Part shown: in pieces, positions 5,862 to 18,860 of the stretch | Layout: every line of letters begins with the position of its first letter | Numbering within the stretch: position 1 is the first letter of the stretch | Source of the DNA: an uncultured Bacteroidia bacterium | GTDB lineage: Bacteria; Bacteroidota; Bacteroidia; Bacteroidales; UBA932 | NCBI GenBank assembly: GCA_902779785.1 | Contig: CACZDC010000031.1 | Span: forward strand, 1 to 40,318 | Length of the DNA: 40,318 nucleotides | Direction: 5' to 3' | Position numbers and translations under genes: made by a program | Notes under the pieces: generated by a model | Told to the model about the DNA's origin: nothing | Databases searched by the model: none | Seen by the model: the letters and a program-made list of their open reading frames with translations, nothing else

Positions 5862-7698
5862 AAACAATATAATAGGCATAGTCCTGATTGCCCTCGTGAT
5901 GCTGGGCTTTTTCGGCTATCAGAGCCGGCAGGTTAAGAAACAGGCTGAATATCAAGCATATCTGGACTCCATAGCCCTGGCCTCGCAGCCGGTGGATACT
6001 GTCTTGGCCGATGAGGCCGTCCCCGAGCGGACCGCGCTTCCCGCCTCAGCCCCGGTTTTTGCCGACTCTCTCCTTACTGCAGCCGCTTCCGCCGAGGAGC
6101 AGTTCGTTACCATCTCTAACGAGAAGCTGGAAGTTGTTCTCACAACCAAGGGCGCCCAGCCATATTCGGTCAAGGTCAACGGCTATCAGAACTACGACAA
6201 GAGCGACCTGTACATCCTCCGCGGCGGCAAATCCAATCTTGGTTTCATCATCTATGCCCCGAAGGCCGTAGACACCAGACTCGTCAATTTCCAGATAGTC
6301 GGCGAGGAGTCGAACGATTCTACCGTAGTAATGCGTCTGCCCTTCTCCAACGGTGGATACATAGAGCAGAAATACACTCTCCTTCCGGACAGCTACTCTG
6401 TCAGCGAGCAACTTTCCTTCGTAGGAATGCAGGACCTTATCCCTCGGAATATCAATTCGTTCGACATCCAGTTCGAAGCTATGATACCGAGGATGGAGAA
6501 AGGTTACAAGAACGAGAGCCAGTACTCCCGCCTGAACTATTTCTTCCCCGACACCAACAAGCCTGAGAATATCGGTAACGGGCGCAAGGGCAACAAGCGT
6601 TTCGACAACCGTGTGGAATGGTTCGCCTTCCAGCAGCAGTTCTTCTCGGCCATAATGCGTGCCCCGAACTATTTCACTGCCGGAGACTTTAGCATCGATT
6701 TTCAGCCTAAGGACAATGAGGAAGGGGACTTGATGGCCTGCAGCGCCAAGATGCGTGCCGAGATACGTCCTTCAGACAATATCGCGATTCCCTTCGAGTT
6801 CTATTTCGGTCCCAACGACTATAAGGGTCTCAAGGCCTATGGCCATTCCTACGAGAAGGTCATCCCTCTGGGCGGCAAGTGGATCGGTTGGTTCACCAAA
6901 TGGGTGATCATTCCTCTGTTCGACTGGCTCAGCAAGTTCATCGCCAACTTCGGCATCATCATCCTTCTGATGACCATCTTCATCAAGATCGTGGTACTTC
7001 CCTTTGCCTACAAGAGTTATTCTTCCTCGGCAAAGATGCAGGCCCTGAAGCCCCTGATGGAGAAGATCAATGAGAAATATCCCAAGCAGGAAGATGCGAT
7101 GAAGAAGCAGCAGGAGACAATGGCCCTCTATCAGAAGGCCGGCATTTCTCCTATGGGCGGTTGCCTGCCTGTATTGCTTCAGATGCCTATCCTCTGGGCG
7201 ATGTTCCGTTTCTTCCCGGCCTCCATCCAGCTGCGTCAGCAGCCCTTCCTCTGGGCCGAGGACTTGAGCGCCTATGACGACATCATCCACTGGGGAGTCA
7301 GCATCCTGGGTATGGACCATATCTCGCTCTTCGCGCTGCTTATGGCTCTGTCGATGTTTTTCTATTCCAGAGTCACGATGCAGAACCAGACTGTAGGCAA
7401 CGATCCAAATGCCAAGATGATGCAGTTTATGTCGCTCTACCTGATGCCGATAATGATGTTCTTCATCTGTAACAACCTCTCTTCTGGCCTGAGCTACTAT
7501 TATCTGCTCTCCAACCTTATCACTATGCTGGAGACCTGGGTGATAAAGAAGTGGTTTGTCCATCCGGAAGCTATCCTGGCCAAGGTTAAGGCGGCTGAAG
7601 GCAAGCCGGTGCCGAAGTCCAAGTGGCAGCAGCGACTCGAGGAGGCGCAGAAGATGCAGAGGGAGATGGAAAAGCAGAAAGGAAAGAAAAAGCGTTGA
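5854..7698 (+). CDS. yidC: Membrane protein insertase YidC
   Basis: YidC inserts and folds inner-membrane proteins, with or without SecYEG. The 614-residue protein has an N-terminal membrane anchor (about residues 6-22), a large periplasmic beta-domain (about 80-330) and the conserved five-helix core beginning near WIGWFTKWVIIPLFDWL. The core also contains KMQALKPLMEKINEKYP and GCLPVLLQMPILWAMFRF. The C-terminus is a lysine-rich tail (KQKGKKKR), which in other YidC proteins can contact the ribosome. It overlaps DUF349 upstream by 8 bases and shares 4 bases with yggS downstream, so the three genes are probably one operon. Confidence 0.97.
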   Translation: MDKNNIIGIVLIALVMLGFFGYQSRQVKKQAEYQAYLDSIALASQPVDTVLADEAVPERTALPASAPVFADSLLTAAASAEEQFVTISNEKLEVVLTTKGAQPYSVKVNGYQNYDKSDLYILRGGKSNLGFIIYAPKAVDTRLVNFQIVGEESNDSTVVMRLPFSNGGYIEQKYTLLPDSYSVSEQLSFVGMQDLIPRNINSFDIQFEAMIPRMEKGYKNESQYSRLNYFFPDTNKPENIGNGRKGNKRFDNRVEWFAFQQQFFSAIMRAPNYFTAGDFSIDFQPKDNEEGDLMACSAKMRAEIRPSDNIAIPFEFYFGPNDYKGLKAYGHSYEKVIPLGGKWIGWFTKWVIIPLFDWLSKFIANFGIIILLMTIFIKIVVLPFAYKSYSSSAKMQALKPLMEKINEKYPKQEDAMKKQQETMALYQKAGISPMGGCLPVLLQMPILWAMFRFFPASIQLRQQPFLWAEDLSAYDDIIHWGVSILGMDHISLFALLMALSMFFYSRVTMQNQTVGNDPNAKMMQFMSLYLMPIMMFFICNNLSSGLSYYYLLSNLITMLETWVIKKWFVHPEAILAKVKAAEGKPVPKSKWQQRLEEAQKMQREMEKQKGKKKR

Positions 7699-8483
7699 TA
7701 AAGGATAATCTTCATAAGATACAGGCGTCACTTCCAGAGGGGGTGACGCTTGTTGCTGTGTCCAAGTTCCATCCGGTGGAGAGACTCCGTGAAGCCTATG
7801 ATGCCGGCCAGCGCGTCTTTGCCGAAAGCCGCCCGCAGGAGCTTGCAGCAAAGGTTCCGCTGATGCCCTCCGACGTGGAGTGGCACTTCATCGGCCATCT
7901 TCAGACCAATAAACTGAAGCTTGTCCTTCCGTATGTCTCTCTTGTCCAGTCAGTTGACTCGCTCCATCTGCTCGAAGCCATCGAGCGCTGGGGCGAGGCC
8001 AACGGCCGCACGGTCGATGTCCTTCTGGAGGTCCATATTTCCTCCGACGCCGCCAAGCAAGGTTTCGCTCCGGAAGAAGTTTTGGCCATAATCGCGGCCA
8101 TAGCCGGATGGGCTGAACCATCGGAGGCCCGTGGCCACCCTCGGCCACGTAAGAGGGAGGGGCCCGCGGCCGAAGGCCGTGGGAGGGGTCGCGAAGCGAC
8201 GGTCGACGATGGTTCAGCCCATCCGGCTACGCTCGCTTACTATGGCCACATTCGTCTGCGAGGCCTTATGGGGATGGCGACGCTGACGGAGGATGAAAGT
8301 ATCATCGAAGGGGATTTCGTCCGTCTGGAGGCTCTTTTCGGGCAAATACGGGCCGCTTATCCGGAATTGACGGAGTTTGACCAGCTCTCGATAGGAATGT
8401 CCGGCGACTGGCCCATAGCCGTCCGCCACGGAGCCACTATGGTCCGTATCGGTACGGATATTTTCGGTCCGAGAGAATACTAA
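7695..8483 (+). CDS. yggS: YggS/PROSC-family PLP homeostasis protein with an in-frame repeat insertion
   Basis: The family binds pyridoxal 5'-phosphate and buffers vitamin B6 and amino-acid pools, with no firmly known catalysis. AVSKFHP carries the PLP lysine (K24). HFIGHLQTNK, RLRGLMGMAT, LSIGMSGDW and MVRIGTDIFGPREY are family motifs. I place the start at TTG 7695, in a TTGA overlap with the yidC stop, because family proteins begin right there (x-I-K-D-N-L) and AAAGGAAAG lies upstream; an ATG at 7623 would add 24 non-homologous residues. Family members are usually about 220-235 residues, but this one is 262. The excess is an Arg/Gly/Pro-rich segment (about residues 139-182) encoded by the repeat at 8101-8229, between the helix AIIAAIAG and the strand HIRLRGLM, probably a surface loop. 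Whether the protein remains active is unknown. Confidence 0.9.
   Translation: MIKDNLHKIQASLPEGVTLVAVSKFHPVERLREAYDAGQRVFAESRPQELAAKVPLMPSDVEWHFIGHLQTNKLKLVLPYVSLVQSVDSLHLLEAIERWGEANGRTVDVLLEVHISSDAAKQGFAPEEVLAIIAAIAGWAEPSEARGHPRPRKREGPAAEGRGRGREATVDDGSAHPATLAYYGHIRLRGLMGMATLTEDESIIEGDFVRLEALFGQIRAAYPELTEFDQLSIGMSGDWPIAVRHGATMVRIGTDIFGPREY
8101..8229 (+). repeat. Dispersed hairpin element, copy A, inserted in frame in yggS
   Basis: A perfect 23-bp inverted repeat (8101-8123 and 8207-8229, outer ends TAGCCGGATG/CATCCGGCTA) encloses an 83-bp core. The core matches that of the element at 18288-18407: CCCGTGGCCACCCTCGGCC, CGTAAGAGGGAGGGGCCC and GGGAGGGGTCG are shared. The core itself folds into hairpins: GTGGCC/GGCCAC, a 9-pair stem 8163-8171/8175-8183 with a GAA loop, and GTCGC/GCGAC (8188-8200) with a GAA loop. 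The inverted arms have no similarity to those of the other copy. Weaker pairing, GGCCATA at 8096-8102 with TATGGCC at 8241-8247, continues outside. No terminal target duplication in direct orientation is seen. Confidence 0.88.
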
Positions 8484-17044: not shown

Positions 17045-17335
17045 TCAGCGGTCGAATTTCTTCTCCTTGTAGCGGATGATTTTCTCCTTCATCGCATCGA
17101 CGGCCTCCGTAATGGCCTCCTCGAAAGTACGGGCGCTGCGCTCGATCACGAGTTCCTGGCCGGGGATGTGGGTTTGAATCTTGGCTTTCTTGTTCTCGGC
17201 ATCCGGGAGGAGGGAGAGAACGACATCGATGTCTCCGAGATTGTCGAAGAACTTTTCGATTTTTTCTACTTTCTTCTGGACGAAATCGAGCAGCTTCTGG
17301 TCTGCGTCGAATTTCAAGGACTTCACGTTAATCAT
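17045..17335 (-). CDS. hpf: Ribosome hibernation promoting factor, short form
   Basis: A 96-residue HPF/YfiA-family protein that would bind the 30S decoding region and inactivate ribosomes under starvation. It has the typical beta-alpha start INVKSLKFDADQKLLDFVQKKV, then IERSARTFEEAITEAVDAMKEKI and a basic tail. There is no long C-terminal dimerisation domain. I start at the ATG 17335, not the earlier in-frame codon, because MINVKSLKF is the family N-terminus. The start overlaps the xerC stop by 8 bases, so the two are co-transcribed, an arrangement I have seen described for Bacteroidota. Confidence 0.92.
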   Translation of the reverse strand: MINVKSLKFDADQKLLDFVQKKVEKIEKFFDNLGDIDVVLSLLPDAENKKAKIQTHIPGQELVIERSARTFEEAITEAVDAMKEKIIRYKEKKFDR

Positions 17336-18278
17336 CTTTATTACTTTTTTGTGCCCTTGGATGGGCGGTGTCATATACTTTCTTAAGGCGGGCGACCGTG
17401 TTGTGCGTATAAACCTGCGTCGCGGCCAGGGAACTGTGCCCGAGCATCTGCTTTATGGCATTCAGGTCGGCCCCTTCCTCCAGCAGTTCGGTCGCCAGGG
17501 TGTGTCTCAAGACGTGGGGCGAGACTTTCCCCGTGATCCCGAAACCGTCTCCAAGCTCCGTTTTCACGGCCCTGTCGACATAGACCGGATACAGCGGACG
17601 GCCTTTTAGCGTTGCAAGCAGGCGTTCACTCTCCACTCCCATAGCCTTTGCCGCATCCAAATATAAGCAAATTTCCTGACAAAGTGAAGGGAGAATAGGA
17701 ATTTCTCTCATTTTGTCTCCTTTTCCGTGGACGGTCAGTGTCAGGCGCTCGCGGCTGAAGTGCTTCTTCTCCAGGCTGATAAGTTCCGCACGGCGGATTC
17801 CGGTAGTGCCCAATATGCTGATTATAAGCCGTCTGAGACGTCTTTCATAAAGTTCTACACCCAGTTTCGAGCCCGGCCCTGCGCTGAGAAGCAGCGCCAG
17901 TTCATCTTCTCCTTCCGCGTGCTCGCTTGCCTTGAAATAGGCGTCCATAGATTCCTTTTTATAGAACTCCGGCAGCCTCTTTTCTTTTTTGGGCCTTCTG
18001 ACTCTCTTGACGGGATTGTCTTTCAGAACGCCCTCCTGGACCAGGAAGCGGCAGTAACTGCTGAGCGCAGACAGTTGCTGGTGGACGGTCCTCGGCTTGA
18101 GGCTTTCCATCATAAATGCCTCATATTCACGTATGTCCGAAATCGTAAAGACCTCGGCGGAGAGACTTCCCTTGTGCTCCTCAAAGCGTTTCAGCGCGTC
18201 CTCGTAGATGGCCACGGTCCGCGCGGAATACCTCCTGATATCCCTCAGATACGATATGAACTGCTCTTTATGATCCAT
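17328..18278 (-). CDS. xerC: Tyrosine recombinase XerC
   Basis: A 316-residue site-specific recombinase, most likely one half of the XerC/XerD pair that resolves chromosome dimers at dif. It has the N-terminal SAM-like DNA-binding domain (about 1-90) and the catalytic domain with Arg163 (TGIRRAELI), Lys186 (HGKGDK), His255 and Arg258 (SPHVLRHTLATELL), His281 (LGHSSLAATQVYTH) and the nucleophile Tyr290. A 26-residue tail extends past the tyrosine. No mobile genes or attachment site lie beside it, so an integrase role is unlikely. Its 5' leader is occupied almost entirely by the repeat element at 18288-18407, ending 9 bases before the ATG. Confidence 0.92.
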   Translation of the reverse strand: MDHKEQFISYLRDIRRYSARTVAIYEDALKRFEEHKGSLSAEVFTISDIREYEAFMMESLKPRTVHQQLSALSSYCRFLVQEGVLKDNPVKRVRRPKKEKRLPEFYKKESMDAYFKASEHAEGEDELALLLSAGPGSKLGVELYERRLRRLIISILGTTGIRRAELISLEKKHFSRERLTLTVHGKGDKMREIPILPSLCQEICLYLDAAKAMGVESERLLATLKGRPLYPVYVDRAVKTELGDGFGITGKVSPHVLRHTLATELLEEGADLNAIKQMLGHSSLAATQVYTHNTVARLKKVYDTAHPRAQKSNKDD

Positions 18279-18287
18279 CGGTTATTG

Positions 18288-18407
18288 GAATAGACGTGGT
18301 CATTTGCTGACCGTCTCACTTCGTTCGACCCCTCCCAACCAAGTTGGGCCCCTCCCTCTTACGGGGCCGAGGGTGGCCACGGGTCCTGCAAATGACCACG
18401 TCTATTC
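18288..18407 (-). repeat. Dispersed hairpin element, copy B, in the xerC leader
   Basis: A perfect 20-bp inverted repeat (18288-18307 and 18388-18407, outer ends GAATAGACGT/ACGTCTATTC) encloses an 80-bp core whose reverse complement matches the core at 8124-8206. CCCGTGGCCACCCTCGGCC, CGTAAGAGGGAGGGGCCC and GGGAGGGGTCG are shared. The internal hairpin at 18334-18348 is CCCAAC/GTTGGG with loop CAA, where copy A has a different, longer but also perfectly paired stem. The arms are unrelated to copy A. Both copies read in the same direction as the gene they affect. A short TTGG/CCAA pairing continues beyond the arms after a small offset. Confidence 0.88.
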
Positions 18408-18420: not shown

Positions 18421-18443
18421 AAGATAATTTGCGAAAAAAAGAT

Positions 18444-18451
18444 TATATTTG
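18444..18451 (+). promoter_or_regulatory. -7 promoter box giving a leaderless mRNA
   Basis: TATATTTG ends 7 bases before ATG 18459, so the transcript probably starts at or one base before the start codon. A TTG at 18429-18431 is too close (12 bases) to be a standard -33. Confidence 0.55.
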
Positions 18452-18458
18452 TAAAGTT

Positions 18459-18860
18459 ATGCAGACGGATATGTTATGGGACCCGCTGAGACGCAAAAGC
18501 GTCAAGGCCACCCCCGAAGAGGAGGTGCGCCAGTGGTTCATTTCGGCGGTTCTGCATCAGGGGATGAAGGTTCCCGAGCATATGATGGGCAGCGAAGTGC
18601 CTCTCAAGCAAGGCCAGAAGGATTTCAGGGCCGACATCGTTGTCTATGACCGCAGCGCCGCCCCCCTTATGATAGTCGAGTGCAAGAGGCCGGATGTGGC
18701 GTTGGACCAGGAAGTCATAGACCAGGCCATTCGCTATAACAATGTTCTGAACGTCAAGTATATAGCAATCACGAACGGAGCCAAGACCTTTATGTTCCGA
18801 AGGGACGGGGAGGGCTTCGTCTATATGGAAAGGGCGCCGCTGTGGGAGGAAATGCTATGA
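18459..18860 (+). CDS. Stand-alone HsdR N-terminal-like nuclease domain protein
   Basis: A 133-residue protein matching the type I restriction enzyme R subunit N-terminal domain (HSDR_N_2). It carries a PD-(D/E)xK-like core: DIVVYD near residue 61, then MIVECKRP near residue 75. The rest follows the same fold (VIDQAIRYNNVLNVKYIAITNG). No helicase, HsdM or HsdS gene is nearby, so it is not a restriction system. Its place at the head of a cca-holA operon suggests a housekeeping nucleic-acid role, which is inference. ATG 18459 is chosen because the promoter box lies 7 bases upstream. Its stop overlaps the next start as ATGA. Confidence 0.82.
   Translation: MQTDMLWDPLRRKSVKATPEEEVRQWFISAVLHQGMKVPEHMMGSEVPLKQGQKDFRADIVVYDRSAAPLMIVECKRPDVALDQEVIDQAIRYNNVLNVKYIAITNGAKTFMFRRDGEGFVYMERAPLWEEML

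Follow-up and report, generated by a model that had tools for sequence, protein, structure and literature searches.

How can unrelated arms, each pair perfectly matched, enclose a nearly identical core? This concrete question is posed by a multi-copy element with two copies in a 40,318-nucleotide stretch of DNA (the window), each consisting of a conserved core flanked by perfect inverted arms. The usual fate of a perfect hairpin is decay, or else selection as RNA. The two hairpin copies reported in the initial annotation were recovered with the dimensions given in Table 1, and their cores are 97% identical over a common 38-nt stretch. The accompanying statement that the arms are unrelated is correct for elements 1 and 2 and was too strong for the family, as a degenerate consensus is common to 90 copies. 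Within this consensus, the arms are purine-rich approximately 17–25 nt from the core, pyrimidine-rich approximately 7–12 nt from the core, and have AAACC/GGTTT or AATC/GATT where they meet the core; the most common arm length is 28 bp.

Table 1. Coordinates of the two elements and their parts in the window
Feature	Position	Strand	Remarks
Element 1, 5' arm	8101..8123	+	perfect 23 bp
Element 1, core	8124..8206	+	83 nt
Pseudoknot helix H1, 5' side CGTGGCC	8130..8136	+	partner 8143-8149; covariation, 38 related cores
Pseudoknot helix H2, 5' side CCCTC	8138..8142	+	partner GAGGG 8153-8157; covariation
Hairpin P3 CCCGCGGCC-GAA-GGCCGTGGG	8163..8183	+	covariation, folding
Hairpin P4 TCGCGAAGCGA	8189..8199	+	76.6% of cells paired, alignment partly off; folding
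Element 1, 3' arm	8207..8229	+	perfect 23 bp
yggS/PLPBP reading frame with element 1 in frame	7623..8483	+	TIGR00044
Element 2, 3' arm (core orientation)	18288..18307	-	perfect 20 bp
Element 2, core	18308..18387	-	80 nt
Element 2, 5' arm (core orientation)	18388..18407	-	perfect 20 bp

The yggS reading frame is open across element 1 (GTG is its listed start, and homology to solved structures begins only at residue 25). The residues contributed by the element are located from 157 to 204 in the query, an interval over which the best chain, 5nlc, moves just from 137 to 140, and the insertion point in PLPBP is a short loop. Element 2 is intergenic, located between divergent ORFs at 17328-18278 (-) and 18429-18860 (+). 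Folding of element 1 resulted in z-scores of -8.95 on the + strand and -8.38 on the - strand, with none of 200 shuffles equally stable.

Read in core orientation, the element consists of the arm, the 5' side of H1, an A, the 5' side of H2, the 3' side of H1 and about 3 bases, followed by the 3' side of H2, AGGGG, P3, AGGGG, P4 and the arm; H1 and H2 cross and constitute an H-type pseudoknot. In an alignment of 38 diverse cores (of 40 chosen), 10 of 20 pairs displayed two-sided changes. The two-sided cells numbered 66 as compared with 18.9 in shuffles, a value reached in none of 500 shuffles, and slid controls were far lower. The stem of P3 is conserved at its ends and differs from copy to copy in the middle. 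The core keeps its fold of pseudoknot and hairpins through compensatory changes. A search of five loci carrying five copies returned no Rfam match at gathering score, and an HDV-like ribozyme identity, presumed from the order of the helices not to apply, was set aside. In four copies of the window's own genome (L007, L012, L013, L015), the core encloses an additional hairpin, GGGGTACCCC-A/T run with CATG-GGGGT.CCCC, which is flanked by repeated CCACCCT and resembles a nested element. A second subfamily, L481-L487 in genome G037, has H1 CTTGTGC/GCACAAG and H2 CCCCC/GGGGG, and several of its copies are embedded in a larger common repeat unit.

The core is present at 18 places in its own genome (2.78 Mb, 126 contigs), with two further rows of the search corresponding to the arms of element 1 and not counted. 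When arms were sought at all 18 places, they were mostly long and near-perfect, with just 9 bp at L010; L008, L011 and L014 have related arms in common. The common arm of these three, GGCACAGGGACTTCGG, is located within a GC-rich repetitive region in which several frames are open. Core matches were found in 27 of the 41 genomes of the genus, and a scan of named-genome contigs with a 30-base pattern resulted in at least 115 stretches, of which the 80 listed have titles naming Bacteroidales or Bacteroidia metagenome-assembled genomes, many of them ruminant, with one exception. Of 127 pattern matches, 120 were distinct. The exception, L065, is an exact core match on a contig titled Lachnospiraceae, reflecting either transfer or contamination. 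The exact core pattern had no match in viral contigs, and among 295 genomes sampled from the order, the own genome alone matched with at most one mismatch, a strict pattern that may miss divergent relatives. The carriers are one genus of rumen bacteria, with elements of about 120 bases in and between genes. The literature search, conducted short of full text, returned no description of the family, which is real and, within that literature, undescribed. At L291 in genome G014, the 5' arm and the start of the core are partly tandem-duplicated beside a full copy.

Copies in the own genome are read through in YggS, TrmB, YgiQ, TruA, RibF and TruB (names from NCBIfam, with some fragments scoring under the curated cut-off), in keeping with the Rickettsia-like in-frame passage that the initial annotation had pointed out as a resemblance. 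Among the fetched loci, 50 copies were placed in these six housekeeping genes, 19 sense and 31 antisense, and in-gene copies are read in frame in either orientation. Element remnants often occur at the same site in relatives (L142 and L143 in yggS, L269 in trmB), so that the landing loops are old and tolerant of length. Insertions into housekeeping genes would survive at sites within a loop of flexible length, provided that the reading frame is not interrupted.

The manner in which the arms change was examined between orthologous copies, a link requiring matches on both flanks, each with 40 or more aligned bases, and arms that are identical at 0.70 or more of their positions. The 51 links (77 copies, 1293 stem pairs) contained 123 two-sided and 70 one-sided differences. 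These counts were obtained with equal penalties, in a repeat of an earlier arm scoring that was lenient to G.T and could have biased its results; the core-edge starting points were taken over from the lenient scoring, under which the same 123 two-sided differences stood against 74 one-sided ones. As approximately 2.7% of arm positions had changed one-sidedly, fewer than one matching double change is expected if the two sides change independently. The two-sided differences comprise 66 transversions and 57 transitions, whereas only 16 of the 70 one-sided states are of the transversion type. Transversions cannot pass via G-U, so that 66 of the 123 two-sided changes are not explained by wobble intermediates. 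The other proposal of the initial annotation, a structural stem of free sequence, was thereby supported, the arms changing on both sides with pairing kept. The core changes orientation as well: of 348 ortholog pairs matched on both flanks, 201 have it in the same orientation and 147 inverted, flips seen between species with one assembly per species. A close example is ygiQ, in which the core is flipped in G038 relative to G005 and G037 with nearly the same arms. In the cited portions of work on yeast, arm homogenisation together with spacer inversion marks inverted repeats that have undergone template switching (PMC8604942), and multibase compensatory changes in RNA genes are explained by template switching in those of a second report (PMC8794818). 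Here the arms change together, transversions included, and the spacer inverts, which is the signature of template switching between the arms.

On balance we favor a mobile element, genus-restricted, palindromic and non-coding, whose arms are matched anew by template switching on the hairpin that the core forms. Arms and core would arrive together, and a polymerase would later switch template between the arms on the core hairpin, re-copying one arm from the other. Such switching would let the stem drift in sequence with almost no loss of pairing, would flip the core and, at some loci, may lengthen the stem through inverse copying of a short piece of host flank. Slow arm drift after transposition was rejected as the sole cause, as arms at orthologous sites are well preserved from species to species, while unrelated arms surround near-identical cores within one genome. 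The latter observation also leaves the favored account incomplete. Among 64 non-orthologous pairs with near-identical cores (loops with no more than 2 nt of difference), eight have 11 or more of 13 arm positions in common, and arm similarity between different loci is hardly higher within one genome (0.383, 143 pairs) than between genomes (0.345, 4970 pairs). Near-identical cores with unrelated arms require a further step, for which exchange of cores between loci and renewal of arms at transposition are candidates. The yggS core of G037 is the same, across 92 nt, as that of a second locus in this genome, while in G005 the yggS arms are as in G037 and the central hairpin differs, a comparison that suggests exchange of cores between loci.

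A less probable variant goes further. The element would be mobile and structured, acting as RNA or single-stranded DNA, and would pass on no more than its core and the few innermost base pairs of the stem, template switching restoring the remainder of a long perfect stem wherever the element lands. If true, the stem is a self-repairing handle of free sequence, and one core spreads into, and is exchanged among, many differently armed sites.

We regard as rather unlikely that selection on an RNA stem is sufficient by itself, with the arms forming the P1 helix of a structured RNA, in which they would change by ordinary compensatory substitutions. The compensatory changes in the core would fit such an origin, as would the strand bias of the stem mismatches, which favors wobble and purine-purine mismatches on the core + strand: 203 elements have 153 G.T, 32 A.C, 37 A.G and 6 C.T, and a smaller set of 110 elements has 79, 13, 28 and 3, respectively. 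Compensatory substitution alone does not account for the transversions among the two-sided changes, which have no G-U passage, for the scarcity of transversion-type one-sided states, or for the core flips, and the fold is maintained also in copies whose + strand runs antisense to the gene that carries them. The 31 antisense in-gene copies have 32 G.T and 5 A.C mismatches, and the 19 sense copies 13 and 7. The mismatches tolerated are those that pair on the element's + strand even in antisense copies, indicating that the host mRNA is not what pairs; host mRNA structure was ruled out as the selected feature on this ground. Template switching in pure form predicts no strand bias, so that a constraint or selection on the + strand fold must be added to the favored account. 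The + strand fold of the core, as RNA or single-stranded DNA, would then probably be the functional form.

The initial annotation had further suggested that, on insertion, neighboring target DNA is copied in inverted form; one arm would then be the original target, as in foldback or hairpin transposition. Such copying would place unrelated yet paired arms around near-identical cores, but as the origin of the arms we judge it improbable. Some relatives are element-free at orthologous sites, and of 59 such windows, compared unfiltered (an earlier version, which kept short gaps only, was biased), six are arm-like at p<=0.05 where about three are expected, and at least two of the six contain a decayed element; the remaining 53 lack arm resemblance at that threshold. 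Single cases are weakened, as many element-free orthologs are merely 70-85% identical. Across 171 elements, the flanks showed no enrichment for arm k-mers, and arms were absent from the empty sites of the dnaN spacer, L109/L051, L041/L124 and L086/L104. The spacer between dnaN and the exonuclease gene contains an element in six genomes (G019, G321, G351, G363, G314, G264), in which the innermost 25 bp are perfectly paired yet differ between genomes. The element is absent from G317, 95% identical to G019 in dnaN, with four bases from stop to start, and the spacer is 4-8 nt in several element-free relatives, too short for an arm to fit. An independent insertion in this spacer, L430 in G146, has 8 nt of flank (ACCCTAAA) repeated in its arm. 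Some recent copies have core and inner arms in common: L022, L026 and L038 have identical loops and the same inner arms at different loci, and the second subfamily in G037 comprises seven copies with the same inner arms. The absence of arms from empty sites and the retention of inner arms by recent copies argue that arms generally arrive with the element, and copying of the target therefore fails as a general rule.

Two loci bear on a more limited form of this idea. In a gene of G037 and G302 that we take, from its ORF, to be murB-like, conserved host codons (CTTACCCC...) make up the end of the 3' arm, and an inverted copy of them is found in the 5' arm; the host-derived stretch is confined to the outer 9-10 nt, so that the target-copy proposal stands for these nucleotides at one locus and not for whole arms. 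L064 and L093 have an extra 10-11 nt inverted copy of flank beyond a bulge. These cases point to later outward growth of the stem, which may have followed insertion. At yggS, the 3' arm of L137 and L138 aligns to the element-free L145, which had suggested target-derived arms; this candidate was withdrawn because L143 has an element remnant beside the same arm and L145 may be a deletion product, and the 171 flanks and 59 windows also contradict it. As the element-free yggS relatives may be deletion remnants, the original yggS insertion cannot be reconstructed from them. Copying of the arms from elsewhere in the genome was ruled out for yggS, whose arms have no second match in the own genome at E<=0.001.

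We also doubt that the family is an ordinary MITE that depends for its movement on a transposase supplied in trans, from an IS or of the Y1/RAYT type, with terminal repeats that have merely diverged. MITEs and REP/RAYT elements are likewise short, non-coding, dispersed and hairpin-forming. The burst of L022, L026 and L038, with identical loops and like arms, has GAATG-like repeats at both ends, and direct flanking repeats of at least 7 nt occur at 7 of 179 elements (1.0 expected). Y1-family proteins score over cut-off in 30 of the 41 genomes, and in G000, two of the five Y1 genes are located within 1 kb of an element, in the neighborhoods of truA and truB. Terminal repeats are, however, not conserved from copy to copy beyond the degenerate consensus, and none of the 30 Y1 loci fetched has an element within 1.5 kb, the two G000 cases being the exception to this lack of a neighboring Y1/RAYT gene; among 60 other loci serving as control, three have an element, two of which were fetched because they bear one. 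G014 is rich in copies and has no Y1 match (70% complete genome). The co-occurring Y1/RAYT gene sought on the suggestion of the initial annotation was therefore not linked to the family, and the survey of Y1-family proteins in the genus identified no transposase as the mover. The two G000 genes, at G000:C3:18613-18873 and G000:C11:30702-30845, are approximately 0.7-0.9 kb from the truA and truB elements. It is very improbable that the family represents an inverton, in which the core would be inverted between its arms by site-specific recombination, for although inverted repeats bound a segment occurring in both orientations among orthologs, the arms are locus-specific and offer no common recombinase site, and the flips were observed between species only.

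Template switching on a mobile element, the account favored above, has partial counterparts in known systems. Rickettsia palindromic elements (RPEs) are described in the cited sections as 100-150 bp long, palindromic and in frame within unrelated protein genes (PMC10969869), and a second source, in the part cited, reports that they lose repeat identity over time (PMC6649704). Compared by behavior, the present family is also short, palindromic and in frame in unrelated protein genes; it differs in having a conserved core, locus-specific near-perfect arms and hosts of another phylum. The mitochondria of Nematomorpha contain perfect inverted repeats in genes with concerted arm evolution, for which template switching was proposed (PMC6649704, in the part cited), and in these three respects they resemble the elements studied here. 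The Nematomorpha palindromes reach 284 bp and are described in that part without a common conserved core or dispersed family (PMC6649704). Arm homogenisation, spacer inversion and multibase compensatory changes are shared with template switching in yeast and in RNA genes (PMC8604942, PMC8794818), although the cases in the cited portions are events at resident repeats, whereas here a dispersed family of elements would depend on switching. The family thus resembles RPEs in its in-frame landing, and template-switched repeats in the evolution of its arms.

With many independent palindromes in conserved genes and a dense sampling of species, the correction of arms by switching, the inversion of spacers and the growth of palindromes become measurable in bacteria. 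Housekeeping proteins, tRNA-modifying enzymes among them, carry these selfish insertions in frame. In ribF (L196, L197, L199) and the murB-like gene (L468, L469, L475), another dispersed sequence, GTCATTCTGA.CGAAG.GAAGAATC, is found in frame in the same tolerant loops.
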